64,000 bases of DNA from positions 116,162 through 180,161 of the forward strand of contig OMZE01000017.1 of NCBI GenBank assembly GCA_900315455.1, written 5' to 3'. The notes under the pieces were generated by a model that searched no databases, was not told the DNA's origin, and saw only the letters and a list, made by a program, of their open reading frames with translations. This stretch comes from an uncultured Prevotellaceae bacterium (lineage in GTDB: Bacteria > Bacteroidota > Bacteroidia > Bacteroidales > Bacteroidaceae). Both the position numbers and the translations under genes were made by a program. Below, piece after piece: positions 2,835-46,940 of this stretch (positions within the stretch are counted from its first letter, which is position 1; every line of letters starts with the position of its first letter).

Positions 2835-2839
2835 AGGAG

Positions 2840-5005: not shown

Positions 5006-5029
5006 ATCTCTTGTTTCTTAAATGATTCT

Positions 5030-8152: not shown

Positions 8153-8223
8153 AAGTTTTGATTTTTGATAATAGTTAAATAAAATTAGGTAAATTCTAAG
8201 GCAATTTTTGATTTTGTTCGCTG

Positions 8224-8231: not shown

Positions 8232-8282
8232 ATTGAAAAAAGATGAGCAACGTTCAACTATTGTTCCAACACTATTTGAAAA

Positions 8283-8333: not shown

Positions 8334-8367
8334 ACTGTAAGGGCTATGGAAGAAAAGGGGGTGGAAA

Positions 8368-12249: not shown

Positions 12250-12288
12250 TTCACATCGCGTTTCGTCGAACAGATTTTAAGTATGGTG

Positions 12289-12296
12289 CAAAGATA
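12289..12296 (-). promoter_or_regulatory. HTCS gene promoter -7 box
   Basis: TATCTTTG (minus strand) 40 bp upstream of the HTCS ATG matches TAnnTTTG. No good -33 element is seen at the expected distance. Confidence 0.5.
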
Positions 12297-12455
12297 ACAT
12301 TTTTCTCCACAGTATTTGATATTATTGCACAAAAACTCTGCTTATGAAACGAAATCGAATGTCAAAGGAACATGGAACAGATTGATGACATCGACTTTTT
12401 CGGTGATGGAAAGTGAAAAGAAAGGAAAAATTCGTAACTTCGCCACAAAAAAAGA

Positions 12456-31058: not shown

Positions 31059-31155
31059 CGAAATAAATCATTAAACACCGAGCAATTTGATGAAGATTTA
31101 TGCCACGACACGCATTTTATGCCACGGCACCAAAAGCCATGTCGAAAAAAAACAC

Positions 31156-31163
31156 TATTTTTG
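31156..31163 (+). promoter_or_regulatory. murF promoter -7 box
   Basis: TATTTTTG followed by CACG, 20 bp before the murF ATG. No clear -33 element. Confidence 0.5.
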
Positions 31164-31183
31164 CACGATTAAATTCCTATACC

Positions 31184-32485
31184 ATGCAAATAGAGAAACT
31201 ATACGAGATTTTCACGCAGCATCCCACGGTGACTACCGACACACGGCAGTGCACCCCCGGCGCCATGTTCTTCGCGCTGAAAGGAGAGACATTCGACGGC
31301 AACAAGTTTGCCACCCAGGCATTGGAGAAGGGGTGTTCCCATGCCATCATCGACGAGGCAGAATACGCTGTCGCCGACGACCCCAGATACATCGTGGTAG
31401 ACAATGTGCTCACCACCCTGCAGCAGTTGGCACGCCACCACCGCCGCGCCATGGGCACCAAGGTGATCGGTGTGACCGGCACCAACGGCAAGACCACCAC
31501 GAAAGAACTCATCGCCACCGTGCTCAGCCAAAAATACAACGTGCTCTACACACAGGGCAACTTCAACAACGACATCGGCGTGCCCAAGACACTCCTGCAA
31601 CTCAACAAGGAGCACGAAATCGCCGTAGTGGAGATGGGCGCCAGCCATCCGGGCGACATCAAGACGCTCGTCGACATCGTGGAGCCCGACTATGGCATCA
31701 TCACCAACGTGGGCAAGGCCCATCTTCAGGGATTCGGCAGTCTGGAAGGTGTCATCCATACCAAGGGCGAACTCTATGACTTCCTGCGCGGAAAAGAAGG
31801 GAGCGTGGTGTTCATCGACAACGGCAACGACCTGCTGAAGGGCATCTCCGGCGGCCTGCGCCTGGTGACCTACGGCACCACTGGCGAGGAGGACCTCTGC
31901 GTGGGAGGAGAAGTGCTATCGTGCGCACCAATGCTGCAATTCAGGTGGCGTCATGGTGCTGGAGAATGGCATGAGGTAGCCACGCATCTCATCGGCACCT
32001 ACAACGTGACCAATATGCTGGCTGCTGCATGTATCGGTCTCTACTTCGGGGTAGAACCCCAGCAGATTGACGAGGCACTCTCGGCATACTGTCCCACCAA
32101 CAACCGCTCGCAACTCACCATCACCGAGCACAACCGCCTGGTGGTGGACGCCTACAATGCCAACCCCACCAGCATGAATGCCGCACTGTGCAACTTCCGC
32201 GACATGGAGGTGTCGCCGAAAATGGCCATCCTTGGAGCGATGCGCGAACTGGGAGAGAGCAGCGAGGAGGAGCACCGCAAAGTCATCAGTTTCTTGTTGG
32301 AGAACGGCTTCGGCGAGGTGTGGCTCGTTGGCGAAGAGTTCAACCTTGAGGGTTGTCCTTATCCCTGTTTCCACGATGTGGAGGAGGTGAAGAAAGCCAT
32401 TGCGGAAAAGCGGCCCGAGGGGTATTACATCCTCATCAAGGGAAGCAACAGCACACGCCTTTTCGAACTTCCCGCACTGTTGTAA
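31184..32485 (+). CDS. murF: UDP-MurNAc-tripeptide--D-alanyl-D-alanine ligase
   Basis: A 433-residue Mur ligase. It has the N-terminal MurF domain (TDTRQCTPGAMFFALKGETF), the ATP loop GVTGTNGKTTTKEL (~97-110), NFNNDIGVPKTLL, DAYNANPTSM and AILGAMRELGESSEEEH. It adds D-Ala-D-Ala, the product of Ddl, to the peptidoglycan precursor. The ATG at 31184 follows a promoter box; the frame extends upstream but across that box. Confidence 0.96.
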   Translation: MQIEKLYEIFTQHPTVTTDTRQCTPGAMFFALKGETFDGNKFATQALEKGCSHAIIDEAEYAVADDPRYIVVDNVLTTLQQLARHHRRAMGTKVIGVTGTNGKTTTKELIATVLSQKYNVLYTQGNFNNDIGVPKTLLQLNKEHEIAVVEMGASHPGDIKTLVDIVEPDYGIITNVGKAHLQGFGSLEGVIHTKGELYDFLRGKEGSVVFIDNGNDLLKGISGGLRLVTYGTTGEEDLCVGGEVLSCAPMLQFRWRHGAGEWHEVATHLIGTYNVTNMLAAACIGLYFGVEPQQIDEALSAYCPTNNRSQLTITEHNRLVVDAYNANPTSMNAALCNFRDMEVSPKMAILGAMRELGESSEEEHRKVISFLLENGFGEVWLVGEEFNLEGCPYPCFHDVEEVKKAIAEKRPEGYYILIKGSNSTRLFELPALL

Positions 32486-32527
32486 AACAGCATTAATACC
32501 ACTTGCAGAAAGAAAAAATAGGAAAAA

Positions 32528-32559
32528 TTTGTCGATATGGCAAATTTGCACTATCTTTG
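32528..32559 (+). promoter_or_regulatory. tRNA-Pro promoter
   Basis: TTTG (32528-32531), 20 bp, TATCTTTG (32552-32559), then 11 bases to the mature tRNA 5' end. It is a full consensus match. Confidence 0.8.
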
Positions 32560-32570
32560 CACCGCAAAAT

Positions 32571-32643
32571 CGGGATGTAGCGCAGTTGGTAGCGCACTAC
32601 GTTCGGGACGTAGGGGTCGGGCGTTCGAGTCGCCTCATCCCGA
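32571..32643 (+). tRNA. tRNA-Pro (anticodon CGG)
   Basis: A complete 73-nt cloverleaf: acceptor CGGGATG/CATCCCG with discriminator A, D stem GCGC/GCGC, anticodon stem CTACG/CGTAG with loop TTCGGGA (anticodon CGG, G37 as usual for proline), and T stem GGGCG/CGCCT. The first pair C1-G72 is typical of bacterial tRNA-Pro. The CCA end is not encoded. It has its own strong promoter and is followed by a tandem array of degenerate copies of its 3' half. Confidence 0.95.
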
Positions 32644-32715
32644 CTGAAACGGTTTTTTTATTATATGGCACGTAGGGTTCTGAGCCAAAGGCCGCATCAT
32701 CACGACTTTTATTTA

Positions 32716-32743
32716 AAACCGCTGAGAAATCGGTGGTTTTTTT
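32716..32743 (+). terminator. Terminator after the first tRNA-tail copy
   Basis: AACCGCTGA, a GAAA tetraloop, TCGGTGGTT (two wobble pairs), then T7. Confidence 0.7.
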
Positions 32744-32798
32744 ATTTTATGGCACGAAGGGTTCTGAGCCAAAGGTCGCCTCATCCCGACTGAAAAGA

Positions 32799-32824
32799 AG
32801 CAGGGCAAAAGTCCTGCTTTTTTT
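32799..32824 (+). terminator. Terminator after the second tRNA-tail copy
   Basis: AGCAGGGC, loop AAAA, GTCCTGCT, then a T-run. An identical copy follows the third core at about 32876-32901. Confidence 0.75.
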
Positions 32825-32956
32825 GATGGCACGAAGGGTTCTGAGCCAAAGGCCGCATCATCACGACTGAAAAGAAGCAGGGCAAAAGTCCTGCTTTTTT
32901 TGATGGCACGAAGGGTTCTGAGCCAAAGGCCGCATCATCCCGACTTTTTCAAGAGT

Positions 32957-32990
32957 CAAGTGTCTGATTAATCAGGCACTTGATTTTTTT
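32957..32990 (+). terminator. Terminator after the fourth tRNA-tail copy
   Basis: CAAGTGTCTGAT paired with ATCAGGCACTTG (one wobble), then T7. It closes the array before the pectinase gene. Confidence 0.8.
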
Positions 32991-33027
32991 ATACCGCTTT
33001 TACACTACATTTGCACAATAAAAGTAT

Positions 33028-33035
33028 TATCTTTG
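33028..33035 (+). promoter_or_regulatory. Promoter -7 box of the pectate lyase/pectinesterase gene
   Basis: TATCTTTG, ~50 bp before the ATG at 33086. A TTTG at 33010-33013 is only 14 bp upstream, shorter than usual, so activation by a regulator is possible. Confidence 0.5.
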
Positions 33036-33085
33036 CAACTGACGGAGAACAAACACTACATCAAACTACAAGAAAACAAAGTCCT

Positions 33086-35221
33086 ATGTTATCTACACGT
33101 ACATCTTCTATCCTCATGCGCATGCTCATGTTGTGCTACTTGGGATGGCTGGCGGCCTCCCCTTCATCTGCACAAATCCACAGCCAGCAATGGAAACAGA
33201 TACTGCGCCAAACCGATGAGGCATTCTTCAAGACCGAAGAAGCACAACGCATCGGCGAACAACTGATGCTCTACCAGCGCGTAACCGGCGGATGGCCCAA
33301 AAACATCAACATGGTGACTCCCCTCACCCAGGAGCAGCGGGAGAAAGTGCTTGCCGACAAGCAGCGCACCGATGATTCCACGACAGACAACGATGCCACC
33401 AATATCCAAATGCACTTCCTTGCCCGGCTCTTCCATGCCACCCATGACAAACGGGTACGTGAGTCGTTCTGCAAGGCGGTGGAATACCTTCTCTCCGGAC
33501 AGTATCAGAATGGGGGCTGGCCACAGTTCTGGCCTAACCCGCACGGATACCAGGTACACATCACCTACAACGATGATGCCATGGTCAACACGATGCTCCT
33601 CTTGCGTGAGGTGGCAGAGGCGAAAGTGCCCTTTGAGAAAGCCCTTACAACCAAGGAACTCCGAAAACGGGCAAGCGAGGCCTTTGACAAAGGGGTAGAC
33701 TGTATTCTGAAGACACAGATACGAGTAGGCGACCAACTCACCGTGTGGTGTCAGCAGCACGACCGTGAGACCTACCTGCCCGCTCCCGCAAGGGCATTTG
33801 AACTGCCCTCGTTCTGCTCTCAAGAGAGTGCCTCCATCGTTGGCCTGCTCATGTCTCTGCCACACCCCAACGACCAAGTGAAACGTGCCGTACACGCCGC
33901 CATGAAATGGTTTGACACCTACAAACTGACTGGCCTGCGCCTGCAGCGCACTTTCTCCTGGGAGTCGGGTGAGCGTGATGTCCAACTGGTGGAAGACCCC
34001 AGCGGCTCTCCTTTGTGGGCGCGTTACTACGACCTGAAACACTGCAAGCCCTTCGTTTGCGACCGTGACGGGATACCCCGTCAGCGTCTTGAGGATATCG
34101 GCTCGGAACGGCGAAACGGGTACGCCTGGTATTGCGACCGTCCCATGACACTCTATGACACCTATTCGCAGTGGGCAGACAAGTATGACCCTACGAACAA
34201 GGTGCCCATCAGTTTGTCGACCAAAGGTGCCAATGAAAACGGGCTGCTCAACCTGTTCGCCCCCGTAACGGCCGACCCGTCGCTTTTCGATGCCGTAGTC
34301 AGTCCGGGTGAATCCATCCAGGCTGCCATCGACAAAGTAGACCGAGACAACAGCAAGCCTTATACCATTCTCCTTCGTAACGGCACTTACACGGAGAAAG
34401 TCATCATCTGCCGTCCACATATCGTGCTGGTGGGCGAGAACCGCGACAGTACCATCCTCGTGATGGCGGAAACCAGAGAGACCCAAAAAGTGACCGAGTA
34501 TGACGGCAAGCCTGTCGGCAATGGCGTGGTGGTACTGCAGGAAGGTGCCGATGACTGTGTCATCAGCGGGATGACCATCTACAACAACTACGGTACGACT
34601 GTGGAGAACACCACACGGCATCAGATGGCGGTCTTCGGAAGGGCCACACGCACCATCATCGTCAACTGCAATATATGGGCTGACGGCAATGATGCCCTCT
34701 CGCTATGGGCACCAGGAGGCGATGGCATGTACTACCATGCCGACCTTTCGATTCGCTGTCCCGGTGTCGATTTCCTGTGCCCAAGGGGATGGTGCTACGC
34801 CACCAGATGCCGTTTCTTCGGCGACAGCCGCGCCATCGTATGGCATGACGGGCGTGGAGACAAGAGCAAGAAACTCGTCATCACCAACTCTCATTTCGAT
34901 GCAGCCAGCCCCACCGTCTTGGGACGTTACCACCATGACTCACAGTTCTACTTCGTCTCCTGCTCGATGTCGAAGAACATACTCGACAGCAACATCAGTT
35001 ACGCCTACACCGACAAGGTGCTCGACCCCTGTCCGTGGGGGCAGCGGGTGTATTTCTACAACTGTACCCGCGAAGGAGGCCACGGCACGTGGATGAACAA
35101 CAACCTGGCAGAGGCGGAAGGTTCGCCAGAATACCACACCGTCACCGCCCAATGGACGTTCAACAACAAATGGGACCCGGAACGGACGGTGAGAGAGTTG
35201 TGGCCCTACATCTGCTACTGA
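33086..35221 (+). CDS. Bifunctional secreted pectate lyase (PL10) and pectin methylesterase (CE8)
   Basis: From the ATG at 33086 this encodes 711 residues with a signal peptide ending near SPSSAQ. Residues ~25-375 are a PL10-type pectate lyase (YQRVTGGWPKNINM, QYQNGGWPQFWP, TYNDDAMVNTM). Residues ~410-711 are a right-handed beta-helix pectinesterase (FDAVVSPGESIQAAIDKV, DCVISGMTIYNNYG, CPGVDFLCPRGWCYATRC, IVWHDGRG). In the esterase the classic Gln-Asp pair appears as GNDALSL, so Asp is kept and Gln has become Asn. The protein should remove methyl esters and cleave homogalacturonan. An upstream in-frame ATG at 33011 would spoil the signal peptide. Confidence 0.9.
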   Translation: MLSTRTSSILMRMLMLCYLGWLAASPSSAQIHSQQWKQILRQTDEAFFKTEEAQRIGEQLMLYQRVTGGWPKNINMVTPLTQEQREKVLADKQRTDDSTTDNDATNIQMHFLARLFHATHDKRVRESFCKAVEYLLSGQYQNGGWPQFWPNPHGYQVHITYNDDAMVNTMLLLREVAEAKVPFEKALTTKELRKRASEAFDKGVDCILKTQIRVGDQLTVWCQQHDRETYLPAPARAFELPSFCSQESASIVGLLMSLPHPNDQVKRAVHAAMKWFDTYKLTGLRLQRTFSWESGERDVQLVEDPSGSPLWARYYDLKHCKPFVCDRDGIPRQRLEDIGSERRNGYAWYCDRPMTLYDTYSQWADKYDPTNKVPISLSTKGANENGLLNLFAPVTADPSLFDAVVSPGESIQAAIDKVDRDNSKPYTILLRNGTYTEKVIICRPHIVLVGENRDSTILVMAETRETQKVTEYDGKPVGNGVVVLQEGADDCVISGMTIYNNYGTTVENTTRHQMAVFGRATRTIIVNCNIWADGNDALSLWAPGGDGMYYHADLSIRCPGVDFLCPRGWCYATRCRFFGDSRAIVWHDGRGDKSKKLVITNSHFDAASPTVLGRYHHDSQFYFVSCSMSKNILDSNISYAYTDKVLDPCPWGQRVYFYNCTREGGHGTWMNNNLAEAEGSPEYHTVTAQWTFNNKWDPERTVRELWPYICY

Positions 35222-35242
35222 TAGAAAATTGTGCCAATACCA

Positions 35243-35284
35243 AAAGGGTGGTTTTCCTATACATGATGAGGAAAGCCACCCTTT
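35243..35284 (+). terminator. Hairpin after the pectinase gene
   Basis: A 16-bp stem with one wobble (AAAGGGTGGTTTTCCT at 35243-35258 with 35269-35284) and a 10-nt loop, 22 bp past the stop codon. No strong T-run follows. Confidence 0.6.
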
Positions 35285-35381
35285 GTGTAGGTAAATGGGA
35301 TATTCAGATAGATTGGAAATGACTTGCTTTATTTTCGGATGAATTCTTCAACAGAATTTATTGAACCTGGAGTTGGGTTTG

Positions 35382-35489
35382 TCAAACATTAGTCAGGCCT
35401 ATTATCACAAATGCGAGGAATAAGACGAGGACAATGACTCTCAGCCAATTGTAGATAATGACTATTCCATGTGCTTTCTGTTTTTCCAT
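35382..35489 (-). CDS. Possible 35-residue membrane peptide
   Basis: A short ORF encodes MEKQKAHGIVIIYNWLRVIV followed by LVLFLAFVIIGLTNV: a charged start and one membrane helix of ~20 residues. TACTATTG at 35524-35517 on the minus strand is one mismatch from the -7 consensus. It lies in a 443-bp gap between the pectinase and the Na/Pi cotransporter, which otherwise holds only the hairpin above. No known family is recognised; expression is unproven. Confidence 0.4.
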   Translation of the reverse strand: MEKQKAHGIVIIYNWLRVIVLVLFLAFVIIGLTNV

Positions 35490-35664
35490 ATTATACCATA
35501 TTATTGATTGCTGCTGCAATAGTACGCCATGGATATTACAAAAACATTGCAGTAATATGAAGGTAAGGTTACCACTGTGTTTGTAACAGAATTATAATTT
35601 GGGTGTAACGGCAATGCAACAAGTTTGTAAAACCTTTGCAGCGTAATTACAGCAAGACTATTTC

Positions 35665-37374
35665 ATGGAATTAATTATCAACATTTTCTCTCTTATTGGC
35701 TCACTGGCGCTGTTCCTCTTCGGAATGAAAACAATGTCGGAGGGTCTTGAGAAGTTTGCCGGCGACCGGCTGCGCAGCATCCTGGCTGCCATGACAAAGA
35801 ACCGCGTGACGGGCGTGATGACAGGTATTCTCATTACCGCACTCATACAATCGTCGAGTGCCACCACGGTGATGGTGGTGAGTTTTGTGAATGCGGGCCT
35901 GATGACGCTGACACAGTCTATCGGAGTCATCATGGGTGCCAACATCGGTACCACCGTCACGGCATGGATTATCTCTGCCGTTGGTTTCAAAGTCAACATC
36001 GCTGCCTTTTCCATTCCGTTGCTGGCCATAGGCATGCCACTGATATTCAGTGGGAAAGGCAACAGAAAGAGTATCGGTGAGTTTATCTTTGGCTTTTCGT
36101 TCCTCTTCATGGGCCTGTCGTTCCTTCAGGAGGCAGCCACCGCCATGGACATCGGCGGCATGGTGGCAGGATTGCTGGCACATGTGCCGCAAGACTCCTT
36201 CTTCACCATCATCCTTTTCGTCATCGTGGGTGCTGTGGTCACTATGATCGTGCAGGCCTCTGCTGCCACAATGGCCATCACACTGATGCTCTTCGGCATG
36301 AACATACCCGGGTTCGGATTTGAACAGGCAGCAGCCCTGGCCATGGGACAAAACATCGGTACGACCATCACGGCATTCATGGCTTCGCTCACTGCCAACA
36401 CGCAGGCCCGCCGAGCAGCCTTGGCACACATGTTCTTCAATGTATTCGGTGTGGTGGCTTTCCTCATCGTGTTCTATCCTGCTTGCCATGCCGTCAGTTG
36501 GTTTGTGGAGAGCGTGATGGGTGGTGGCAACGACCTGTTCAAACTATCAGCCTTCCACACCGCTTTCAACATCATCAACACGCTGCTGCTCATCGGTTTT
36601 GTGAAACAGATAGAGAAGTTAGTGTGCAAGATTCTGCCCATGAAGGCTCAGGATGAAGACTACCGGTTGAAGTTCATCAGTGGAGGTCTGCTCTCCACAG
36701 CCGAACTGAGCATCATGGAGGCCCAGAAAGAGATTCACAGTTTTGCCGAGCGTTGCCGTCGGATGTTCGGGTTCGTGCCGGAATTGCTGCAGATTCAAGA
36801 CGAGGAGAAGTTCAACAAACTCTTCTCACGTATTGAGAAGTACGAGAACATCACCGACTCGATGGAGATGGAAATTGCCAGTTATCTGAGCAAGGTGAGT
36901 AAAGGCCGGCTGTCTGATGCATCAAAGAGTCAGATTCAGAAAATGCTACGGCAGATTACAGAACTTGAGTCTATCGGCGACTCGGTGTACAACCTCGGCC
37001 GCACCTTGAACCGCCACCGCATGCACTGTCAGGAAGCGTTTACCGCAGACCAGAACCAGCACATGCTCACGATGATGCAACTCGTGGATGGTGCTTTGGC
37101 AGAAATGCTGAAGCAGATAGACCTGCCCACGACCAAGAAAGGCATCATGACCTCCTTCAACATAGAGCATGAGATTAACAACTACCGCACGCAACTGAAG
37201 AACCAGAACCTGCAAGACGTGAATTCGGGCCGATATGACTATCAACTCGGAGTGTTCTACGTTGACTTCATCTCAGAGTGTGAGAAACTAGGCGACTATG
37301 TGATGAATGTGGTGCAGGCAGGAAAGAAACGGAATAATGACTTTGAGGAAATGCCGAATGATGTACCGTTCTAG
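35665..37374 (+). CDS. Na/Pi cotransporter family protein with PhoU-like C-terminal domain
   Basis: A 569-residue inner-membrane protein. Two inverted NptA/PNaS repeats carry ALIQSSSATTVMVVSFVNAG (~Q62) and a second VQASAATMAITLMLFGMN (~196). Each is followed by a GANIGTTVTA or GQNIGTTITA motif. Residues ~340-569 are helical and PhoU-like. It is likely to move phosphate with sodium. The stop codon TAG at 37372-37374 shares the palindrome CTAG with the stop of the convergent sensor kinase gene, which belongs to a PhoR/PhoB-like pair. Confidence 0.92.
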   Translation: MELIINIFSLIGSLALFLFGMKTMSEGLEKFAGDRLRSILAAMTKNRVTGVMTGILITALIQSSSATTVMVVSFVNAGLMTLTQSIGVIMGANIGTTVTAWIISAVGFKVNIAAFSIPLLAIGMPLIFSGKGNRKSIGEFIFGFSFLFMGLSFLQEAATAMDIGGMVAGLLAHVPQDSFFTIILFVIVGAVVTMIVQASAATMAITLMLFGMNIPGFGFEQAAALAMGQNIGTTITAFMASLTANTQARRAALAHMFFNVFGVVAFLIVFYPACHAVSWFVESVMGGGNDLFKLSAFHTAFNIINTLLLIGFVKQIEKLVCKILPMKAQDEDYRLKFISGGLLSTAELSIMEAQKEIHSFAERCRRMFGFVPELLQIQDEEKFNKLFSRIEKYENITDSMEMEIASYLSKVSKGRLSDASKSQIQKMLRQITELESIGDSVYNLGRTLNRHRMHCQEAFTADQNQHMLTMMQLVDGALAEMLKQIDLPTTKKGIMTSFNIEHEINNYRTQLKNQNLQDVNSGRYDYQLGVFYVDFISECEKLGDYVMNVVQAGKKRNNDFEEMPNDVPF

Positions 37375-38816
37375 AACCGGGCGAGTGTAAACCTGATGGT
37401 GAGCCCTCCCCCGGGAGAAGAAAGTGCTGTTGTTGTCCCACCATGGACAGCGACAGCATTTTTCACAATGGCGAGTCCAAGACCGGTACCTCCGAGTTTG
37501 CGTGAACGGCCTTTGTCGGTCCGGTAAAAGCGCTCGAAAAGGTGCTCCAGATGCTGCGCCTCCACACCCGGCCCGTCGTCTCTCACCAGAAACTCATAGA
37601 AATGCCGGCCGTCGGTTTCAATCTCGCTACAAACAATCTCCAAATGCGATGCTCCGGTAGCATAGACTATAGCATTGTCGATAAGATTGCGGAAAATGCT
37701 GTAAATCAGGCTCTGGTCGCCCAGTACTTCCACATGCCGAGGCAGTTGGAGTGATGGTGTGATACCCTTGTCATGGAGTTGTGGAGAAGTATCATCAAGC
37801 ACATTCTGAATGACCTGCAGCACATCTACCTGGCAGAATGCCTGTCGGGTGATGGTCTTGTTGTCATCCAATTCGTCAAGTTTGGTGAGGGCACTCATAT
37901 CGAGCAGCAACTTGCTCATGCGTTCACTTTGGGCATAGCATCGCTCCAGGAAATGCCTCTTCTTATCCTCTTGCATACCGGGATTGTCGAGGATGCTCTC
38001 CAAATACCAATGGATGGTAGCGGCAGGAGTCTTCAGTTCGTGGGCGGCATTCTGCGTCAACTGGCGTTTGATGCGCAACTTGTCTTCCTCAGAATGGCGC
38101 AATTTCCAGTAGAGCATGATGATGGTATGGCTGATGTCGCCCAGTTCATCGTGGGGAAGCCGGTGTTCCAGTTCGCGGTCGAGTTCCTCACCCTCTTCGG
38201 CTTTGACGGCGAATTCGCGCAGATAGCCAATATGACGGCTGATGCGGTGGGTGATGTAGTAAAGCACGATGCCCAACAGCAGGGTCAGCACACCGGCAAA
38301 GTAGATGTAGGTGTTGTCGGCTTGCAGCGAGCGGGTCAGTTCGGCTGAATAAGGCACGGCAGCACGCACGATGACATCGCCGAAGCGTGTGGCAGAATAG
38401 AAATAGGTTTCATGGGTGGATTGTGACATACGCTTGATGTCGTAACCATTGCCATCACGCAGTGCCTGCTGTATCTCCTCGCGCTGCAGATGGTTGCCCA
38501 AGGAATCGACGTTGGTGTCGTAACTGTCGAGGATAACTCGCCCTTTCAGGTCTATCAAAGACACGCGGAGACCTTCCACCTGATGACGTTCCACATAATT
38601 CCGAAACAGTTGGCTGTTGGTCAGGCTGTCCTCGCCGAGCGTCTGCGCCATCTCGTAGTTATACATTTGCAGGCGCGAGTGCAAGATGTCGATTTTGTAT
38701 TCCTTTTCGCGTTGATACTGATAAACACTGAAGCAGACGGCAAAGAGCAAGAACACACCGCCAACACTCAGCAACAAATTGCGTTGGAAAGACTTACTTC
38801 TCAAAACAGTAGCCAT
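37371..38816 (-). CDS. PhoR-like sensor histidine kinase
   Basis: A 481-residue membrane kinase with two membrane helices (LLLSVGGVFLLFAVCFSVYQ near 15-34; IYFAGVLTLLLGIVLYYITH near 170) around a ~130-residue periplasmic sensor, then HisKA with His ~259 in NAAHELKTPAATIHWYLE, and HATPase motifs FLVRDDGPGVE and GGTGLGLAIVKNAV. It follows its response regulator with a 23-bp overlap. It ends tail-to-tail with a Na/Pi cotransporter, which suggests phosphate sensing; the ligand is not proven. Confidence 0.92.
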   Translation of the reverse strand: MATVLRSKSFQRNLLLSVGGVFLLFAVCFSVYQYQREKEYKIDILHSRLQMYNYEMAQTLGEDSLTNSQLFRNYVERHQVEGLRVSLIDLKGRVILDSYDTNVDSLGNHLQREEIQQALRDGNGYDIKRMSQSTHETYFYSATRFGDVIVRAAVPYSAELTRSLQADNTYIYFAGVLTLLLGIVLYYITHRISRHIGYLREFAVKAEEGEELDRELEHRLPHDELGDISHTIIMLYWKLRHSEEDKLRIKRQLTQNAAHELKTPAATIHWYLESILDNPGMQEDKKRHFLERCYAQSERMSKLLLDMSALTKLDELDDNKTITRQAFCQVDVLQVIQNVLDDTSPQLHDKGITPSLQLPRHVEVLGDQSLIYSIFRNLIDNAIVYATGASHLEIVCSEIETDGRHFYEFLVRDDGPGVEAQHLEHLFERFYRTDKGRSRKLGGTGLGLAIVKNAVAVHGGTTTALSSPGGGLTIRFTLARF

Positions 38817-39480
38817 AGCCTACTCGTGTCTTTATCTGTTTGCCATAACGGCCTATCTTCCTGCGCAGCCGGGTGATGTTCACGTCGACCGTGCGGTCGA
38901 GCACCATCACATCCTGTGGCCAGCAATATTTCAGCAGGTCCTCTCGTGAAAACACTTTGTTGGGATGTTGGAGAAAAAAAGAGAGCAGTTCGAACTCAAG
39001 TTTGGTAAGAACCAACTTCTGACCGTCACAAGTGACCGTTTTGGCATTGATGTCGAGTGCAATACCCTCAAAGACAATCATATTGTCATCGGGTGCAGCC
39101 ACTGTCTGCTGAAGTTGGGACGACCGCCTGAGAACAGCCCTGACCCTGGCCATCACCTCTTTCATGCTCAGTGGCTTGACAATATAGTCGTCCGCACCGA
39201 TATTCAATCCTTTCACCAGGTTATCCTCGCCATCGAGTGCTGTGATAAAAATAATGGGAATCCGAGCCGTAGAGACATCGTTTTTCAACCTGCGCACCAA
39301 CTGGAAGCCAGACATCTCACCCATCATCACGTCAAGCAGAATCAGCGAGTATTCCTGTAGGGGCAGTTCAAGTGCTTCCTCGGCCGAAAAAGCGGTCATC
39401 ACCTCATAGCCTTCTGTTTCTAGATTGTATTTAAGTATCTCACAAATATCCGACTCGTCGTCCACAACAAGTATTTTCAT
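38794..39480 (-). CDS. OmpR/PhoB-family response regulator
   Basis: A 228-residue regulator: receiver with MKILVVDDESDICEIL and phospho-acceptor Asp near 54 (LILLDVMMGEMSG), conserved Lys in YIVKPLSMKEV, then a winged-helix DNA-binding domain (LTKLEFELLSFFLQHPNKVF; VDVNITRLRRKIG). It is first in the pair with the overlapping histidine kinase. TATTTTTG at 39508-39501 (minus strand) is a likely -7 box just upstream of the ATG. Confidence 0.94.
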   Translation of the reverse strand: MKILVVDDESDICEILKYNLETEGYEVMTAFSAEEALELPLQEYSLILLDVMMGEMSGFQLVRRLKNDVSTARIPIIFITALDGEDNLVKGLNIGADDYIVKPLSMKEVMARVRAVLRRSSQLQQTVAAPDDNMIVFEGIALDINAKTVTCDGQKLVLTKLEFELLSFFLQHPNKVFSREDLLKYCWPQDVMVLDRTVDVNITRLRRKIGRYGKQIKTRVGYGYCFEK

Positions 39481-39613
39481 AAGCCACCATCATTTTCAGG
39501 CAAAAATAATGAAAATTTCCCTAAACGAATAAGGATTAGTATTACAATGTTATGATATTTTAGCCCCGTTAGTTTCGCATTCAATCAACTTATGGAATGA
39601 AAGGAAACACCGT

Positions 39614-40330
39614 TTATTTCCGATGTGACTGGAACTCGATTATTGCACAAACCTCGGTGTTGATGGAGAGTGAGATTGCAAACGTGTTGTCCGTGGTCCG
39701 GTAAACAGCAGGTATCAGCGTGTCGCCCAATTTGGCGGCCACTCTATATTCTACCCGCAGGCCATTTATCTCGAAATCGTCAGGCAACAACTCCATCGCC
39801 ATGCGGATGTAATTGGCGTTGTTCACATGGCGGTTATAGTCGATGTCGGCCCGCATCACGGGGATGGGGTCATGGGCTATGCCGCCATCTTTAGGCAAGA
39901 TGATGCGCCGGTCGCCGTAGTTCATCTCCAACTTCGGCTCCAATGTCATCGAGGCGATGGTGGGGTCATCCACACGTTTCAGTTTTCCGGTGGCTTTATC
40001 TACGAAAGCACCCATGCTCCATGTGCGGTAGCAGGGACGTCCCTCTGCATCGTAGATGAAGGTGTTGCGGAAACCGAACATTGGCTTCATGCCGTAGACC
40101 GAGGTTGTCACTGTCAGTTCCTCCTTATAACTCGGCACACGGATAATTTCCACCTGGCGCGAGGCCAGCAACTGTGTCATGTTCTGGTCGGTGAAAAACT
40201 GCCTGACACCAGGTTCTGAGTCAATCCACATTTCCGAGCAGTCCTGCATCATCTGCAGGGCAGAGTATAATTTCAAGCGTCCTTCGCTATCACAGACACT
40301 TGTGGTCACTTTGTATTTCAGACTGTACAT
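39614..40330 (-). CDS. Acyl-ACP thioesterase (FatA/FatB-like)
   Basis: From the ATG at 40330 this encodes 238 residues with two hotdog folds: an N-terminal half with YKVTTSVCDSEGRLKLYSAL and WSMGAFVDKATGK, and a second half with DIDYNRHVNNANYIRMAMEL, whose Asn-His lies at the usual catalytic place. It releases fatty acids from ACP in the cytoplasm. A longer form from 40378 adds 16 non-conserved residues and would leave almost no leader after the TATCTTTG box at 40398-40391, so the inner ATG is preferred. Confidence 0.82.
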   Translation of the reverse strand: MYSLKYKVTTSVCDSEGRLKLYSALQMMQDCSEMWIDSEPGVRQFFTDQNMTQLLASRQVEIIRVPSYKEELTVTTSVYGMKPMFGFRNTFIYDAEGRPCYRTWSMGAFVDKATGKLKRVDDPTIASMTLEPKLEMNYGDRRIILPKDGGIAHDPIPVMRADIDYNRHVNNANYIRMAMELLPDDFEINGLRVEYRVAAKLGDTLIPAVYRTTDNTFAISLSINTEVCAIIEFQSHRK

Positions 40331-40390
40331 GTAGTAGTTGTTAAATCCAGTATTTTCTCTTCCAATGGGCTTTGCCATCACAAGATGATG

Positions 40391-40398
40391 CAAAGATA
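40391..40398 (-). promoter_or_regulatory. Thioesterase promoter -7 box
   Basis: TATCTTTG followed by CATC on the minus strand, ~55 bp before the preferred start. No clear -33 element. Confidence 0.5.
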
Positions 40399-40603
40399 CA
40401 ACAATTCCGCACATTCGCATCGAGAAGGAACGGTTTAATTCACAGAATATTCATTCCACTTCTCAATTATTCATGTCTTCAGAGTGATTTGCACCCTTCA
40501 GGCCATTTCCACGACGCCCTCCCCAAACCATGTTTTCCTTGCATGCGAACGCTTGCTGATGAGTGGTGTGAATAGAGTTGAGTAAATTTATCTGTTTGAT
40601 GAT

Positions 40604-40635
40604 TTTGTGGAAATGAAGGAAAATGTGTAATTTTG
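40604..40635 (+). promoter_or_regulatory. Promoter of the propeller/DUF362-GH2-esterase cluster
   Basis: TTTG (40604-40607), 20 bp, TAATTTTG (40628-40635), ~25 bp before the ATG at 40661. Full consensus match. The stretch 40421-40600 upstream shows no gene. Confidence 0.75.
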
Positions 40636-40660
40636 CAGATGAACACAAACTACTAACAAA

Positions 40661-42802
40661 ATGATGATGAAAAGAATGGTTATGGCTGTGCTTCTGATGC
40701 TGCTGGCGATTTGCGGTGCAGAAGCACAAAGCACTGTGAACACTAATCTCAATCGGCATGATTTCTTCTATGCCGGACAAAGCAAACAACGAAGGATGTT
40801 TATCGTGAAGGATGGACAAGTGAGTTGGGTGTATCAAGATGGATTGAAACGGGGTGAAATCAGCGACGCGGTACTGATGAGCGACGGTCATATACTGGTA
40901 GCCCACCAGTATGGTGTGGCCGAGGTGACACAAGACCAGCAGACCGTATGGAGTTATTCTGCTCCTGAGGGCACCGAAATCCACACCATCCAACCCATAG
41001 GAACGTCACACGTGGTGTTTGTGCAGAACGGACGTCCGGCAAAGGCGGTGGTGATGGAAATCCCATCATGCCATATTGTCAGGGAATTTGAGTTACCCAC
41101 CAACGAAAAAGGTTCCGTTCACGGACAGTTCCGCAACGCAAGACTCAGCCAACGCGGAACATTGCTCATTGCCAACATGGCATTAGGCTGTATCCATGAG
41201 TACAACAGCCTTGGTCAGGAGGTGGACCGATGGGACGGTTTCCTTCCGTGGTCGGTGCAGGAACTCCCGAAGGGAAACCTGCTGATTACAGGACGCAAAG
41301 GCCACATCCAGGAAATCAACCGTCAAGGACAGACCGTATGGGAGATGAACACTACGGAATACGGCGTGACCCAACCCCAGAAAACCATTCGTCTGAAAGA
41401 TGGAGGGCACCTGATCAACAACTGGTACAACGAATGGAACAAGGAACCGATGGACACGGCAAACGCCCCTGTCCAGGCCATAGAAGTAGACCAAAACGGT
41501 AAGGTGGTGTGGCAACTCCGCGCATGGAAAGCCCCCGACCTCGGTCCGTCGACCACCATCCAACTGCTCAGCGACCCCGTGAAACGCGAGAACCTATTCT
41601 TTGGGGAGTTCAATGGCAGGCATCCCAGACTCTTCGTCGCCCCCAACCAACCGATAGGCATTGGGCGCGGCATCCACCCCGGCCGTGTGGCATGGATTCA
41701 CCACCCCGGCGTGGCCAAGTGGGACGGGCATACCGGTCTCTGGGTAGAAGACCGCTGGAACGACCAGTCGCGAGCCGACGCCATGATACCAGAAGCAGTG
41801 ATGCAACTGACAGGCGAGCCGACCGCGAAGAAGGCATGGCGTGCACTATTCAAGCACTTCAATCGCGAACATGGCCGAGGCAACCGAGGCTATAAAAAGG
41901 GTGAGATGATAACCGTGAAACTGAACATGAACAACGCCATCACCCACCGCGACACCGTGGAGTTGAACTCGTCACCCTTCACGACATTGGCATTGGTGCG
42001 CTCGATGGTGCACGACGGCGGTATCAGGCAACAGGACATCGTGCTCTGCGAACCCAGCCGCGCCATCACCGACAGTATTTACAACAAGATACACCGTGAG
42101 TTTCCCCTGGTACGTTTCGTTGACAACATCGGCGGCGACGGGCGTGAGAAGTGTGAGTATTATCCGGAACAGATAGTCTACTCCGTGGACAACGGGAAGA
42201 TGGCACGCGGGCTGGCGAAATGTATCGTAGATGCCGACTACCTGATCAACAGCGCCCTGTTGAAAACACATTCGGGTCCGGGTGTGACGCTGACGGCCAA
42301 AAACTGGTATGGCTCGACAGACATCAACCTGCTTTGGCGACAGAACGCGCACAACAACGTGAGTCAGGACAAGCGCAACGGCAAACCCGGCTACAAGACC
42401 TTCGTAGACTGGATGTCGCACAAGGACATGGGGCAGAAGGCACTGCTCTACCTCATTGACGGCACATACGGCTCACGTGATGTGAATGGAGCGCCGAACC
42501 CCAAATGGATGAAGGAACCCTTCAACGGCGACTGGGCATGCTCCATCATCGTCTCGCAAGACGAGGTGGCCTGCGACGCCGTAGCCATGGACATCATCAT
42601 CGGTGAGTGGCCCGAGTTTGGCAGTCTGAACTACTGCGACGAATACCTGCGCGAGGCTGCCAGCATACCCAACACCCCCAGCGGCACCACCTACATGCAG
42701 GACGGCAAGCCACTCGAAAAACCCCTTGGACTCTTCGAACACTGGAACAACCCACAGGAGCGGAAATACACGAAGATTGATTTGATATACAAGAAACTAT
42801 AA
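40661..42802 (+). CDS. Secreted fusion of a beta-propeller (arylsulfotransferase/PQQ-like) domain and a DUF362 domain
   Basis: A 713-residue protein with a signal peptide ending near CGAEAQ. Residues ~35-320 contain repeated blades (GHILVAHQYGVAEVTQDQQT; GNLLITGRKGHIQEINRQGQ; GGHLINNWYNEWN) like PQQ or arylsulfotransferase propellers. Residues ~340-713 match DUF362: MITVKLNMN, DIVLCEPSRAITDSIYNKI, ADYLINSALLKTHSGPGVTL, TAKNWYGSTD. DUF362 is better known in ferredoxin-like proteins, but no Fe-S cysteine cluster is seen here. It is followed by GH2 and esterase genes at 17-56 bp spacing, so a role in plant-glycan use is inferred. The activity is unknown. Confidence 0.7.
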   Translation: MMMKRMVMAVLLMLLAICGAEAQSTVNTNLNRHDFFYAGQSKQRRMFIVKDGQVSWVYQDGLKRGEISDAVLMSDGHILVAHQYGVAEVTQDQQTVWSYSAPEGTEIHTIQPIGTSHVVFVQNGRPAKAVVMEIPSCHIVREFELPTNEKGSVHGQFRNARLSQRGTLLIANMALGCIHEYNSLGQEVDRWDGFLPWSVQELPKGNLLITGRKGHIQEINRQGQTVWEMNTTEYGVTQPQKTIRLKDGGHLINNWYNEWNKEPMDTANAPVQAIEVDQNGKVVWQLRAWKAPDLGPSTTIQLLSDPVKRENLFFGEFNGRHPRLFVAPNQPIGIGRGIHPGRVAWIHHPGVAKWDGHTGLWVEDRWNDQSRADAMIPEAVMQLTGEPTAKKAWRALFKHFNREHGRGNRGYKKGEMITVKLNMNNAITHRDTVELNSSPFTTLALVRSMVHDGGIRQQDIVLCEPSRAITDSIYNKIHREFPLVRFVDNIGGDGREKCEYYPEQIVYSVDNGKMARGLAKCIVDADYLINSALLKTHSGPGVTLTAKNWYGSTDINLLWRQNAHNNVSQDKRNGKPGYKTFVDWMSHKDMGQKALLYLIDGTYGSRDVNGAPNPKWMKEPFNGDWACSIIVSQDEVACDAVAMDIIIGEWPEFGSLNYCDEYLREAASIPNTPSGTTYMQDGKPLEKPLGLFEHWNNPQERKYTKIDLIYKKL

Positions 42803-42819
42803 GCAAAAAAGAGAGAATC

Positions 42820-45588
42820 ATGAAGCGGATACGGCTCATTATCTTAGGTGTCATTTTTCATTTGTCATTCTGTACGGCACAAGTAACAGATGCCTTTCAA
42901 GGCATATTGCCGGTGACAGACCCGCAGATGATACAGAACCTGAACGGAGTGTGGGACGTGAAGGTGTCCGAGGAAATCGTCGTCTGCGCAGAAGGTGTTC
43001 TTCATCAACCCGTGCCAGGCATTGACTCCACTTGGACCAAGATACCCGTACCAGGCTGCTGGGAGGCCTACGGACTCTGCAAGCCGAAGTATGACAGTAC
43101 GAACCCGCTGACCGGGTTCTACCGCACCACTTTCACCATACCAGAGGAATGGAAAGGCCAGCGCATCATCCTCCGTCTCGACGGTGTGCTCTATGGTTAT
43201 GACTTATGGGTCAACGACCAATATGTAGGACAATGGAGGTCGGGCTACAACACTGCCCTTTTCGATATCACCGACTATCTCAAGCCCTCACTCTCGAAAT
43301 CCAAGGGCAAAGGATGGAGCCAGGCGCAACAAGTCGCCCTGCGCGTCATCTCACAATTCCCAGGTTCCGACTTCGACTACAACGACGACTGGGCTCCCAA
43401 CGGCATTTTTCGCGATGTAACCCTCTTCGCCGTGCCCGAGACCCACCTGAAAGACCTGACCATCCACACCCATCTGAATGGCGAAGTGGAGGTGGACACG
43501 GAGATAGCGAACGCCAAGAAAGGCACGACCGTCAGGCATGAGATTCTCGACGCCCAAAGACAGGTCGTAGGCACGATGAAAGTGGCGCATCCACATCTGT
43601 GGACGGCAGAGACACCTTACCTCTACACGCTGCGCACCACACTGACGCAGAAAGGCAAGACACTACAGGTCTTCGAGCACAAGTTCGGTTTCCGCGAACT
43701 GACCATCGACGGCAACGTACTGAAACTGAACGGCCAACCCATCAAACTGCGTGGTGTCACCAGCCATTCCACCGACCCCTCGACGGTGAAGGTCATCGAT
43801 GAGGCCAGTATCCTGCGCGATATGAAACTGATGAAGGAGGCCTCGGTCAACTACATCCGCACCTCGCACTATCCCCGCGAGCCACGCTTTTACGAACTGG
43901 CCGACTCGCTTGGTTTCTACATCATCGACGAAGTGCCCTTCGGCTATGGCGACAAGAACCTTTCAGATACCACGTTCTATCCTGTGCTGCAACAAAGGGC
44001 TCAGGCCACCATCCGCCGCGACAAGAACCATCCCTCGGTGCTCATCTGGAGCCTAGGCAACGAGAACCCACTCACCGACATCTGTATCCGATTGGGCGAA
44101 TATGTCTCCCAGGAACTTGACCCCACTCGCCCCTTCTGCTATCCCCAGGTAGGCAGTTACTTCCGCCGCTTCTTCGAGGGCGACGGGAAAGGATTCCCCT
44201 CCAACGCCCCCATTTACACGCCCCACTATCCCACCACCGGACAGATTGGCGGCTTCTACCAACATTTAGACCGCCCCGTCATCTTCACGGAGTATTGTCA
44301 CTCGTTGGGCGTTTCCTTCGAAGACCACGACCGCCAATGGGAGATCATTGAGCACACACCAGGCATCGCCGGCGGCTCCGTATGGGAATGGGTAGACCAG
44401 GGAATGCCGTTCAAGGCACCCATGAAAGACCGTTATGGTTATGAGGAGCGTGTATTCACCTCGCACGACGGCGGTTTTGAGATGTTCGGCAACAAAGGCA
44501 CCGACGGACTGCTCTATGCCGACCGCACCCCGCTACCCAATTACTACGAACTGCAACACAACTACGCCCGTGCTTTTGTGAAGGAAGTGAAGGATGGCAC
44601 GCTTGAAATCGTCAACCGCTACGACTTCCTCAATCTGAAGGACGACGTCACCTTCCACTGGACACTGACCAACGACCGTGACACCGTGCTCCGCGGAGCG
44701 CTCAGTCCTGACTGCCAACCCCACTCCTCAGTCTCCTATGCCCTGGACCTTCCCAAACAGAATGGTCTCAGCCTCCTTCAGTTTGACATCGAAGATGCCC
44801 AAGGACATACCTTCCTCCACCAGAGTTTCGTACTCCACAAACCCGTAGAGGAATGGACGGGCAACGGCGACCCGATGTCGCTGATACAGCAAGGGCCACT
44901 CATCCGTGTGGGGCGCAAGCCGACGATGGCCGAAATGCTGAAAGTGAAAGACACCCGCATAGACAAATATCTTCAACCGCTGGAGAATCCTTATGTCAAG
45001 ACCGATGTGGCCATGACCCCAGAAGAAACAGGTGTAACAGTGAGTTATCAACTCACACCCGACACCACCTCGCGTTTCCTGTCCGAACTGGGTGTCGCCT
45101 TCCTGCTCGACAGCCGTCTCGACCGTGTGCAGTGGATAGGACAAGGGCCGTTCCCATCGTATCCGGGCCGTCGTCAGGCCAACCGCTATGGTTTCTGGGC
45201 CAAGCACAAGGACGACCTGTATTTTGAGGGCAACCGCATGGACGTGGATGCCGCCTACGTCAGCGACAGTCACGGCAATGGCCTGCTCTTCGTGGGCGAC
45301 AGTCTGAACCTGAACTTCGAACAGACCGACCGCGGCATCGTCCTTACCATCAATGCCGCCGTCTCGGGTCAAGGCCCGAAGTTTTCCCGCACTGCTTTCC
45401 CCGTGATATCAAAAGACGTGGGCACCCTTACAGGCCACTTCCGCATCTACCGCATCAATGGCCATGACGGCGCTTCAAGCCTCCACAACCTGTTGATGAG
45501 TCCTTCAGACATCCCGTCACCATTCCATCCGTTTGAGAAGCAGTATGACACTTATCTGATGCGGTTTGATGACGTCTTTGGCCAGTGA
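42820..45588 (+). CDS. Secreted GH2 family glycosidase (beta-galactosidase-like)
   Basis: A 922-residue protein with a signal peptide (MKRIRLIILGVIFHLSFCTA). It has the GH2 jelly-roll N-terminal domain (WTKIPVPGCWEAYGL), Ig-like domain, TIM barrel with the acid/base Glu ~414 in VLIWSLGNENPL and nucleophile Glu ~491 in VIFTEYCHSLG, and a C-terminal beta-galactosidase small-chain-like region (RVQWIGQGPFPSYPGRRQAN). The substrate is probably a beta-galactoside or related side chain of pectin, given the neighbours. It lies 17 bp after the DUF362 fusion gene. Confidence 0.93.
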   Translation: MKRIRLIILGVIFHLSFCTAQVTDAFQGILPVTDPQMIQNLNGVWDVKVSEEIVVCAEGVLHQPVPGIDSTWTKIPVPGCWEAYGLCKPKYDSTNPLTGFYRTTFTIPEEWKGQRIILRLDGVLYGYDLWVNDQYVGQWRSGYNTALFDITDYLKPSLSKSKGKGWSQAQQVALRVISQFPGSDFDYNDDWAPNGIFRDVTLFAVPETHLKDLTIHTHLNGEVEVDTEIANAKKGTTVRHEILDAQRQVVGTMKVAHPHLWTAETPYLYTLRTTLTQKGKTLQVFEHKFGFRELTIDGNVLKLNGQPIKLRGVTSHSTDPSTVKVIDEASILRDMKLMKEASVNYIRTSHYPREPRFYELADSLGFYIIDEVPFGYGDKNLSDTTFYPVLQQRAQATIRRDKNHPSVLIWSLGNENPLTDICIRLGEYVSQELDPTRPFCYPQVGSYFRRFFEGDGKGFPSNAPIYTPHYPTTGQIGGFYQHLDRPVIFTEYCHSLGVSFEDHDRQWEIIEHTPGIAGGSVWEWVDQGMPFKAPMKDRYGYEERVFTSHDGGFEMFGNKGTDGLLYADRTPLPNYYELQHNYARAFVKEVKDGTLEIVNRYDFLNLKDDVTFHWTLTNDRDTVLRGALSPDCQPHSSVSYALDLPKQNGLSLLQFDIEDAQGHTFLHQSFVLHKPVEEWTGNGDPMSLIQQGPLIRVGRKPTMAEMLKVKDTRIDKYLQPLENPYVKTDVAMTPEETGVTVSYQLTPDTTSRFLSELGVAFLLDSRLDRVQWIGQGPFPSYPGRRQANRYGFWAKHKDDLYFEGNRMDVDAAYVSDSHGNGLLFVGDSLNLNFEQTDRGIVLTINAAVSGQGPKFSRTAFPVISKDVGTLTGHFRIYRINGHDGASSLHNLLMSPSDIPSPFHPFEKQYDTYLMRFDDVFGQ

Positions 45589-45644
45589 ACATCCGTCTGC
45601 TCCCCATCAAAATGCCTTTTGTAAGAATCACTATCACCACAACT

Positions 45645-46940
45645 ATGACAAAGAATAAAGTATTACTCCTATTATTTTTGGCCATCATGGCTATCTCGTC
45701 GAAAGGCAAAAATTATCCTTACCGCAGCGACTGCCTGTGGGTAACCGTTCCCGACCACACCGACTGGCTGTATAAGACCGGAGAGGAGGCAAAGGTAGAA
45801 ATACAGTTCTACAAATACGGCATCCCCCGCGATGTGGAAGTGGAATACAGCATCGGAACGGATTTGCTCAAAAGCGACAAGAACGGAAAGGTGAAACTCA
45901 GAAACGGCAGAGCCGTCATCAACATGGGAACGAGCCAGACACCTGGCTTCCGCGACCTGAGGCTGACAGCCAAAGTCGATGACACCACATACACCCACCA
46001 TGTGAAAGTTGGCTTCTCGCCCGAAAAAATCAAGCCATTCACCCAGGAGCCAAAGGATTTCCTCTCTTATTGGAAGGAAGCATTGGCTGAGAACCAAAAG
46101 ATTCCCATGGAGTATACCTCGGAGAAAGTGGAGGAGATGTGCGACAACAATCAGGATGTCTTCCTCATTAAACTGCGTGTAGACCGTCGCCATTGGCTCT
46201 ATGGCTATTTGCTGACACCCAAGAACATGAAAGAGGGTGCGCACCCTATTGTGCTTACTCCTCCCGGTGCGGGGGTGAAGACCATCAAGGAGGTGACTTC
46301 TCGCCCATATTACCAGCAGGAGGGCATGATACGTTTCGTGACAGAGATTCACGGCCTACGTCCCACGCTCGATGAGAAAGATTTCGAGGATGTACGTTCT
46401 GCATTCAGCGAATACTTGGAGATGGGACTCGACAATCCAGACCATTACTATATGCGGCATGTCTATCTGGGATTGGTGAGATGCATCGATTTCCTGTGCT
46501 CCCTTCCTCAGTGGGATGGCAAGAATGTCGCCGTGATGGGTGGAAGTCAAGGAGGTGCACTCTCGCTCATCACCGCTGCTCTTGATGACCGTGTGACACT
46601 GTGTGTGGCCAACCATCCGGCACTGAGCGACATGGCGGCAGGAAGCACGGGGCAGACCAGTGGTTACCCGCATTTCAAAAAGGAAGAAGGGATGTATACC
46701 GAAGCCAACATGCGCACGATGGCTTACTATGACGTGGTAAACTTCGCACGCCACATCACGTGTCCTTCTTTCCTTACTTGGGGATTCAATGACAACACTT
46801 GCCCTCCCACCACATCCTATGCGGTATGGAACACGCTGAAGTGCGAAAAGGAGTGCCTGATCACTCCCATCAACGAGCATTGGACTTCGGATGCCACCAA
46901 CCGCAAACAGATGGAATGGATAAAGTCGCGGTTAAAATAA
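45645..46940 (+). CDS. Secreted acetyl esterase of the CE7/AXE1 type
   Basis: From the ATG at 45645 this encodes 431 residues with a signal peptide (MTKNKVLLLLFLAIMAISSK). An N-terminal beta-sandwich (~25-120) precedes an alpha/beta hydrolase with VAVMGGSQGGALSL (Ser ~301), WGFNDNTCPP (Asp ~381) and PINEHW (His ~411), the AXE1/cephalosporin-C deacetylase triad. A GTG at 45585 overlapping the GH2 stop gives a longer form without a good signal peptide. It likely removes acetyl groups from plant polysaccharides or oligosaccharides. Confidence 0.87.
   Translation: MTKNKVLLLLFLAIMAISSKGKNYPYRSDCLWVTVPDHTDWLYKTGEEAKVEIQFYKYGIPRDVEVEYSIGTDLLKSDKNGKVKLRNGRAVINMGTSQTPGFRDLRLTAKVDDTTYTHHVKVGFSPEKIKPFTQEPKDFLSYWKEALAENQKIPMEYTSEKVEEMCDNNQDVFLIKLRVDRRHWLYGYLLTPKNMKEGAHPIVLTPPGAGVKTIKEVTSRPYYQQEGMIRFVTEIHGLRPTLDEKDFEDVRSAFSEYLEMGLDNPDHYYMRHVYLGLVRCIDFLCSLPQWDGKNVAVMGGSQGGALSLITAALDDRVTLCVANHPALSDMAAGSTGQTSGYPHFKKEEGMYTEANMRTMAYYDVVNFARHITCPSFLTWGFNDNTCPPTTSYAVWNTLKCEKECLITPINEHWTSDATNRKQMEWIKSRLK

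Follow-up and report, generated by a model that had tools for sequence, protein, structure and literature searches.

In bacteria, mobile DNA commonly docks at the 3′ ends of tRNA genes, and a displaced tRNA 3′ fragment is a standard mark of a genomic island, as described in the accessible part of PMC4383910. An Islander-type attR is a 3′ tRNA fragment located behind the intact tRNA gene and oriented like it. CIMEs are stretches bounded by att-like sites and devoid of recombination genes, which stack at one tRNA gene. Tandem repeats directly behind a tRNA gene are known from rtT of E. coli tyrT, where each repeat of about 178 bp contains the 3′ end of its tRNA and a small protein is associated with the repeats. 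For Salmonella, the accessible part of PMC2658671 lists a VNTR at rtT, so that copy number seems to be variable. Displaced tRNA fragments and rtT-type repeats are thus already known; the Prevotella repeat family described here is without an Rfam match, and no report naming such tRNA-tail repeats was found in a literature search that left subscription journals mostly outside its coverage.

The repeats were found in the window, the whole stretch of 64,000 nucleotides that was analysed, whose end coincides with the end of its contig. The assembly (G000) comprises 4.76 Mb in 93 contigs with an estimated contamination of 8%, and its other contigs may belong to another strain. Behind an intact tRNA-Pro(CGG) gene the following features were located:

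32571..32644, + strand: intact tRNA-Pro(CGG) (ARAGORN; Rfam RF00005, 63.7 bits)
32645..32664, + strand: spacer between tRNA and unit 1, T-run retained, without terminator hairpin (fold −1.2 kcal/mol)
32665..32706, + strand: unit 1, left arm of about 26 nt plus copy of the tRNA 3′ end (sequence model R1, 51.3 bits)
32715..32740, + strand: terminator hairpin and T-run behind unit 1 (fold −13.6 kcal/mol)
32749..32790, + strand: unit 2, with the exact tRNA 3′ end as its tail (R1, 54.6 bits)
32793..32824, + strand: terminator hairpin behind unit 2 (−19.1 kcal/mol)
32826..32867, + strand: unit 3 (R1, 49.3 bits)
32870..32901, + strand: terminator hairpin behind unit 3, identical in sequence to that behind unit 2 (−19.1 kcal/mol)
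32903..32944, + strand: unit 4 (R1, 52.2 bits)
32951..32988, + strand: last terminator, of a different sequence type, behind unit 4 (−21.8 kcal/mol)
33000..33018, + strand: direct repeat of the TTGCACAAC type, in degenerate form (sequence comparison with G103 and G417)

The four units are 42-43 bp long, with start-to-start spacings of 84, 77 and 77, and the initial annotation of four tRNA-Pro(CGG) 3′-half repeats at 77-84 bp is confirmed by the units starting at 32665, 32749, 32826 and 32903. The right end of each unit copies the tRNA 3′ end and is followed by a hairpin/T-run terminator. The terminators had been described as interleaved, which is correct behind all four units and not for the spacer between tRNA and unit 1, where the hairpin is missing. 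As claimed before, the T-arm is altered in the same way in all four copies; the same alteration recurs in units of other genomes, and common ancestry of the copies is supported. The prediction that the units are not working tRNAs also held, since neither ARAGORN nor RF00005 found a cloverleaf in them and the sole call of both in the window was 32571-32644. No further core copy was found in the window beyond the array, and no integrase was present among eight window proteins scanned (31100-46937; a subset of the ORFs).

The closest known analogue of the array is rtT, with which it shares tandem repeats behind a tRNA that contain its 3′ end. It differs in repeat length (77-88 bp), in the tRNA and phylum concerned and in carrying an intrinsic terminator in each repeat. 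In addition, the RtT model (RF00391), for which E. coli gave the only match among 14 genomes in a control, does not match the genome of the window at its gathering score, and the Prevotella units are known from sequence alone. The arrangement of the array is also that of an Islander-type attR. In contrast to an island attR, however, the fragments occur as several tandem copies at spacings of tens of bases, and neither island nor integrase lies between tRNA and fragment: instead of an integrase and at least 2 kb, spacers of 21-128 bp were found between tRNA and unit 1 at 25 loci, and longer distances only where other DNA intervenes (G357, with an integrase, and G240). Nor did any known element end in this left arm when 396 genomes and the IMG/VR contigs were searched at limited mismatch. 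Like CIMEs, the repeats are bounded by att-like sequence, lack recombination genes and are stacked at one tRNA; unlike CIMEs, they are only 77-88 bp long, their cargo is a terminator only, and their mobility is putative. A core copy bounds every repeat, and an integrase-bearing stretch begins at a unit in locus L106; these cores may be att sites on which an integrase would act in trans. The earlier statement that no standard feature class covers the array was therefore too strong, as rtT repeats are similar and displaced tRNA 3′ fragments mark islands (PMC4383910, accessible part).

To what extent the units descend from the tRNA was assessed by gapless in-phase alignment with its last 42 nt. 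Units 1 to 4 matched at 26, 28, 25 and 26 of 42 positions, as compared to best matches of 26, 24, 23 and 23 among 5000 dinucleotide shuffles per copy at any offset. Copies 2 to 4 thus scored above shuffled sequence, as the tRNA-derived origin put forward initially demands, whereas copy 1 merely equalled its best shuffle. The match is concentrated in the last 16 nt of the units. In unit 1 the last 14 nt differ from the tRNA 3′ end by two changes, and unit 2 with the bases that follow it has 21 consecutive bases in common with the tRNA end plus trailer, not 17 as first reported. The left 26 nt of units 1 to 4 are identical to the tRNA at 13, 12, 12 and 12 positions (in-phase shuffle P 0.002-0.007), so that the previously described gapless alignment to the last tRNA half holds for the right ends and is weak for the left arms (12-13/26). 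When compared with the tRNAs from 30 loci of this genome, the left-arm consensus fitted tRNA-Pro(CGG) at 15 of 27 positions, tRNA-Lys at 16 and tRNA-Thr at 15, the latter two at other offsets; derivation of the arm from another tRNA of this genome was rejected, a clear source being absent among these 30 loci. Because the match lies mostly in the last 16 nt and the left-arm consensus also fits tRNA-Lys and tRNA-Thr, sequence comparison makes descent from the tRNA secure for the right end and only suggests it for the left arm. The repeated 3′ end derives from tRNA-Pro(CGG) 32571-32644, and the same tRNA is an integration target in relatives. Strong tRNA identity of the units sets in at the 3′ side of the T-arm, close to two of the crossover subsites described in the accessible part of PMC4383910, those in the T loop and at the T-acceptor junction.

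The distribution of the units was determined in genomes of the genus. Units were first collected by a pattern search allowing up to three mismatches, which is biased towards conserved units and gave matches in 46 of 398 genomes, some of them by chance. A sequence model built from 39 of the units so collected and run with stricter filters, at which weak matches are lost, detected 49 units in 29 of 396 genomes, in arrays of one to five. A cultured species is represented by the record of Prevotella brunnea A2672 (L065, L192), where the tRNA is followed by four units. Scores were bimodal, with unit genomes at 25 bits or more and the background below 23 bits. Relative to the pattern search, the model gained one more unit genome (G240) and one arm-only match. 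The latter (G269) is the best score under the gap and consists of the left arm alone without the tRNA tail; no tRNA was found within the 10.5 kb examined on its contig, and the tRNA-Pro(CGG) of this genome is truncated by the end of another contig. At this arm-only match (L390, G269:C54, near 1473 on the reverse strand) the first bases of the left arm also occur as a direct copy ahead of it, and a gene that by eye resembles one for an Abi-type protein lies close by.

tRNA-Pro(CGG) immediately precedes the array in 24 of the 29 unit genomes, which bears out the link to this tRNA that had been set as a test. In the other five it lies behind integrated DNA, behind an att-like core or at a contig start. 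Specifically, units were located 15.7 kb (G357) and about 7 kb (G240) behind tRNA-Pro(CGG) on the same contig with other DNA in between, and in G103, G365 and G371 an att-like core precedes the array, tRNA-Pro not being seen in the stretch examined. An exact-pattern scan of 84,980 species returned 35 stretches. Of these, 22 are real units, every one from a record named Prevotella or Prevotellaceae; the 13 others are unrelated sequence with no tRNA in the stretch examined. Of 60 tRNA loci inspected (L005-L034, L112-L141), 56 had a tRNA match and four of these a core copy in the up to 230 bases read downstream; all four were clear units, and half-decayed cores were not found. On a Pta tree of 49 rows, sampled with bias (26 unit genomes and the 23 nearest others), unit presence requires at least nine changes, below every one of 500 shuffles.

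Terminators are part of the repeat. Of 25 arrays, 22 have a terminator-like hairpin with T-run in the spacer that precedes unit 1, and 22 have one behind unit 1. The window's array is among the three without the former and is the only one of the 25 without any hairpin between tRNA and unit 1; its value in the comparison of terminators rests on a 21-nt spacer. At 11 of 25 loci the terminator of the tRNA and that of unit 1 show a likeness of 85% or more, as compared to 10 of 600 between-genome pairs, which means that the repeat includes the terminator and has been homogenised inside many genomes. The terminator type of 32951-32988 also flanks tRNA-Pro(CGG) in G103 and a tRNA-Pro(GGG) 3′ half in the genome of the window. 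The TTGCACAAC-type direct repeat stands behind similar terminators in G103 and G417, and in G103 this terminator type and the TTGCACAAC repeat lie directly behind tRNA-Pro(CGG). From this comparison we infer that the terminator type and degenerate TTGCACAAC repeat behind unit 4 may represent the left end of an integrative element.

The left arm of the unit is conserved. Five of the eight columns of the middle block GRGCCAAA are invariant and two nearly so among 39 units, and the block is retained in hosts whose Pta identity is as low as 78%. Among 25 hosts for which both a unit and a Pta row were available, the middle of the unit differs by 18% on average, a figure made optimistic by the preference of the pattern search for conserved units. 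Terminators are near the shuffled level between hosts (gapped identity 0.52 vs 0.46 shuffled). Unit divergence is weakly linked to host distance (Mantel r 0.32, p 0.009). To the anticodon arm of the tRNA, with which it is in phase, the left arm bears a weak resemblance. A source of the arm was searched for as follows. With at most one mismatch it occurred in 26 of 396 genomes, 22 being unit genomes and four having the arm in unrelated sequence without core, and in 11 viral contigs, namely one unit array (L266) and ten near-identical unrelated sequences. A complete element with this arm was not found in the 396 genomes and the IMG/VR contigs at these mismatch limits, and the far ends of known islands bear other arms (by eye). 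Phage origin was rejected as well: an exact motif scan of IMG/VR gave two matches of unrelated sequence with no tRNA in the stretch examined, and a broader scan gave only L266, an array behind an att core. Fifteen phage records matched solely the tRNA part of the query.

The 3′ end of tRNA-Pro(CGG) is an integration hotspot. Four islands behind this tRNA carry a perfect copy of its last 14 nt at their far side; they measure 6.9 kb (G485), 15.7 kb (G357, with a Phage_integrase gene), 21.7 kb (G434) and 45 kb (G386). G115 has a tRNA-Pro(GGG) with the same tail and an exact copy of the tail 47 kb away. In the complete genome G391, 11.6 kb separate unit 1 from units 2 and 3 (L106, about 1300-12700). 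This stretch encodes a Phage_integrase (E 3.8e-20); its first base comes right after the 3′ end of unit 1, and it ends in a partial core. As judged from its sequence, it is perhaps an island inserted in a unit rather than in the tRNA. The sequence behind unit 1 in G391 resembles that directly behind the tRNA in G101 and G309; it may therefore be normal flanking DNA, and events at this locus may have taken place in the opposite order. For ten downstream genes of the window, a search at E 1e-15 of the 4.5-12 kb read behind the tRNA in seven close relatives gave no match, and upstream murF was present at both loci checked.

In IMG/VR, 46 stretches contain the 15-nt core; the tRNA end itself is present in L284, L292, L298 and L310, L317 is the opposite end of the contig of L310, and in L266 the core directly precedes a two-unit array. 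Separately, eight IMG/VR contigs (L281, L288, L298, L305, L310, L317, L284 and L292) carry the tRNA-Pro(CGG) 3′ end or the 15-nt core in an att-like context, which suggests that they are probably temperate phages or prophages using this tRNA.

Taken together, the array is tentatively read as a set of attR-like repeats at a tRNA integration hotspot and not as a gene, its copies still being possible integration targets; we assign this reading a probability of roughly 0.43. Each repeat would then consist of two parts, an arm not derived from the tRNA T-arm and a displaced 14-16 nt tRNA 3′ end (att core), followed by a terminator. The arm would be the sequence that remains from the far end of an integrated element. 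After an old integration at tRNA-Pro(CGG), the cargo would have been lost, leaving [terminator][arm][tRNA tail], and recombination between tail copies, site-specific or homologous, would have multiplied and homogenised the repeat, with unit copies remaining usable as targets. Directly supported are the anatomy, location and distribution of the units, the hotspot, the homogenisation of terminators and one integrase-bearing stretch starting at a unit end. Beyond these, we infer that the left arm may be of element origin, that cargo loss may have come first, that copying may have occurred by core recombination and that the G391 stretch may have entered at a unit. Several observations count against the attR-like reading. 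No complete element with the left arm was found in the 396 genomes and the IMG/VR contigs, the far ends of the known islands bear other arms (by eye), and the window has neither a further core nor an integrase among the proteins scanned. The likeness of the G391 sequence behind unit 1 to the flank of the tRNA in G101 and G309 counts against it as well. The arm is in phase with the anticodon arm and weakly like it, which a foreign arm need not be, and its conservation across hosts with near-random terminators exceeds that expected of a passive scar; this cross-species conservation is not fully explained. Of the two explanations originally offered, scars of integration and excision nevertheless fit better, given the hotspot and the integrase stretch at a unit end in G391.

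Simple tandem duplication is the strongest competitor, and an unlikely one on balance. Slippage or recombination at GGNACG would have copied the tRNA 3′ half together with the terminator, the T-arm would have decayed once, and the array would since have undergone expansion, contraction and decay at its end, with no recombinase or function needed. GGNACG is common to the anticodon arm of the tRNA and the sequence that follows several last terminators, ATGGNACG is found behind the last terminator of several arrays before unrelated flank begins, and the last units are decayed in L006 and G240. Duplication would also agree with the terminators being homogenised within genomes and would account for the weak in-phase likeness from the anticodon loop onward. 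It does not account for the conserved non-tRNA middle, since a neutral relic should not retain GRGCCAAA, and it is at odds with a bimodal distribution in which 29 genomes with clear units are followed by background and with the finding that all four core copies at the 56 tRNA loci are clear units.

Less probable still is a proposal in which the 77-88 bp of tRNA-tail core, terminator and conserved arm form a smallest, cargo-less mobile cassette. Phage or island integrases would add and remove it in trans at the tRNA-Pro end, and the result would be an integron-like att stack that would insulate the tRNA and keep spare landing sites available next to an essential gene.

Slightly lower in rank, and doubtful, is an rtT-like small RNA, which would arise by read-through from the tRNA promoter, be released at tRNA maturation and act via the linear motif CUGRGCCAAAKG. 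Conservation of the primary sequence and the precedent of RtT RNAs (PMC4986893, accessible part) speak for it, and in the window a terminator behind every unit and the lack of a hairpin before unit 1 make read-through plausible. However, no conserved fold was detected (0 consensus pairs among 39 of the 40 distinct units, the truncated G277 unit being left out), two window units folded no better than shuffles (z +0.80 and +0.74), a terminator-like hairpin and T-run precede unit 1 in most arrays, and the units occur in only 29 of 396 genomes. At gathering score, Rfam matches in the window were restricted to the tRNA and an L13 leader; in a scan of 32500-33050 all matches except the tRNA were weak and under the gathering score, and RF00391 did not appear. 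A small RNA or terminator decoy, the second explanation offered at first, is thus unsupported by fold, by Rfam and by the hairpin before unit 1 in 22 of 25 arrays.

Two further RNA readings were tried and rejected: (i) a T-box, suggested by eye from UGGN, had no row in the Rfam scan of 32500-33050; (ii) base-pairing between CUGRGCCA and the 16S rRNA 5′ end (by eye) is broken in units of L077, L098 and L106. That each unit encodes a short basic peptide (MARRVLSQRxxHxD) is highly improbable. In its favour, 29 of 46 units have an in-frame ATG at the consensus place and 33 have some in-frame ATG; against it, the consensus ATG is missing in 17, a one-base shift is seen in units of L077, L087 and L102, and variable positions are not codon-patterned in an alignment of 39 units (by eye).

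The repeats copy, genus-wide, a dock together with its terminator, keep an arm that is not tRNA and may be invaded, and thereby provide a natural test of dock duplication, wear and reuse. For annotation they imply that a tRNA-tail fragment found at a distance of up to a few hundred bases from the tRNA can be a repeat and not an island end.

A number of further observations were made. Position 9 of the unit (ATGGNACG) is free within a conserved stretch, with C in 15, G in 13, T in 10 and A in 4 of 42 distinct units, a set from which poor-tail units (the G311 unit) were dropped, and it varies between units of one array in L082, L090 and L106. On another contig of the assembly (G000:C50, 119313 to 166782; L062, L002 and L004), a tRNA-Pro(GGG) 3′ half of at least 45 nt lies 47 kb downstream of the tRNA. 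It is followed by the last terminator type of the window, and a second such terminator stands 3.6 kb further on (170404); judged by this layout, the region probably consists of stacked islands. In L059 (G000:C89:56619-56812), an exact 16-nt copy of the 3′ end of tRNA-Arg(CCG) is located about 100 bp downstream of that tRNA; this 16-mer was absent from all seven related genomes tried. The copy sits between two terminator-like hairpins (by eye) and has a different left arm, which seemingly pairs with it. The L13-Bacteroidia ribosomal leader of the window lies at 2113-2186 (RF03127, 72.5 bits).
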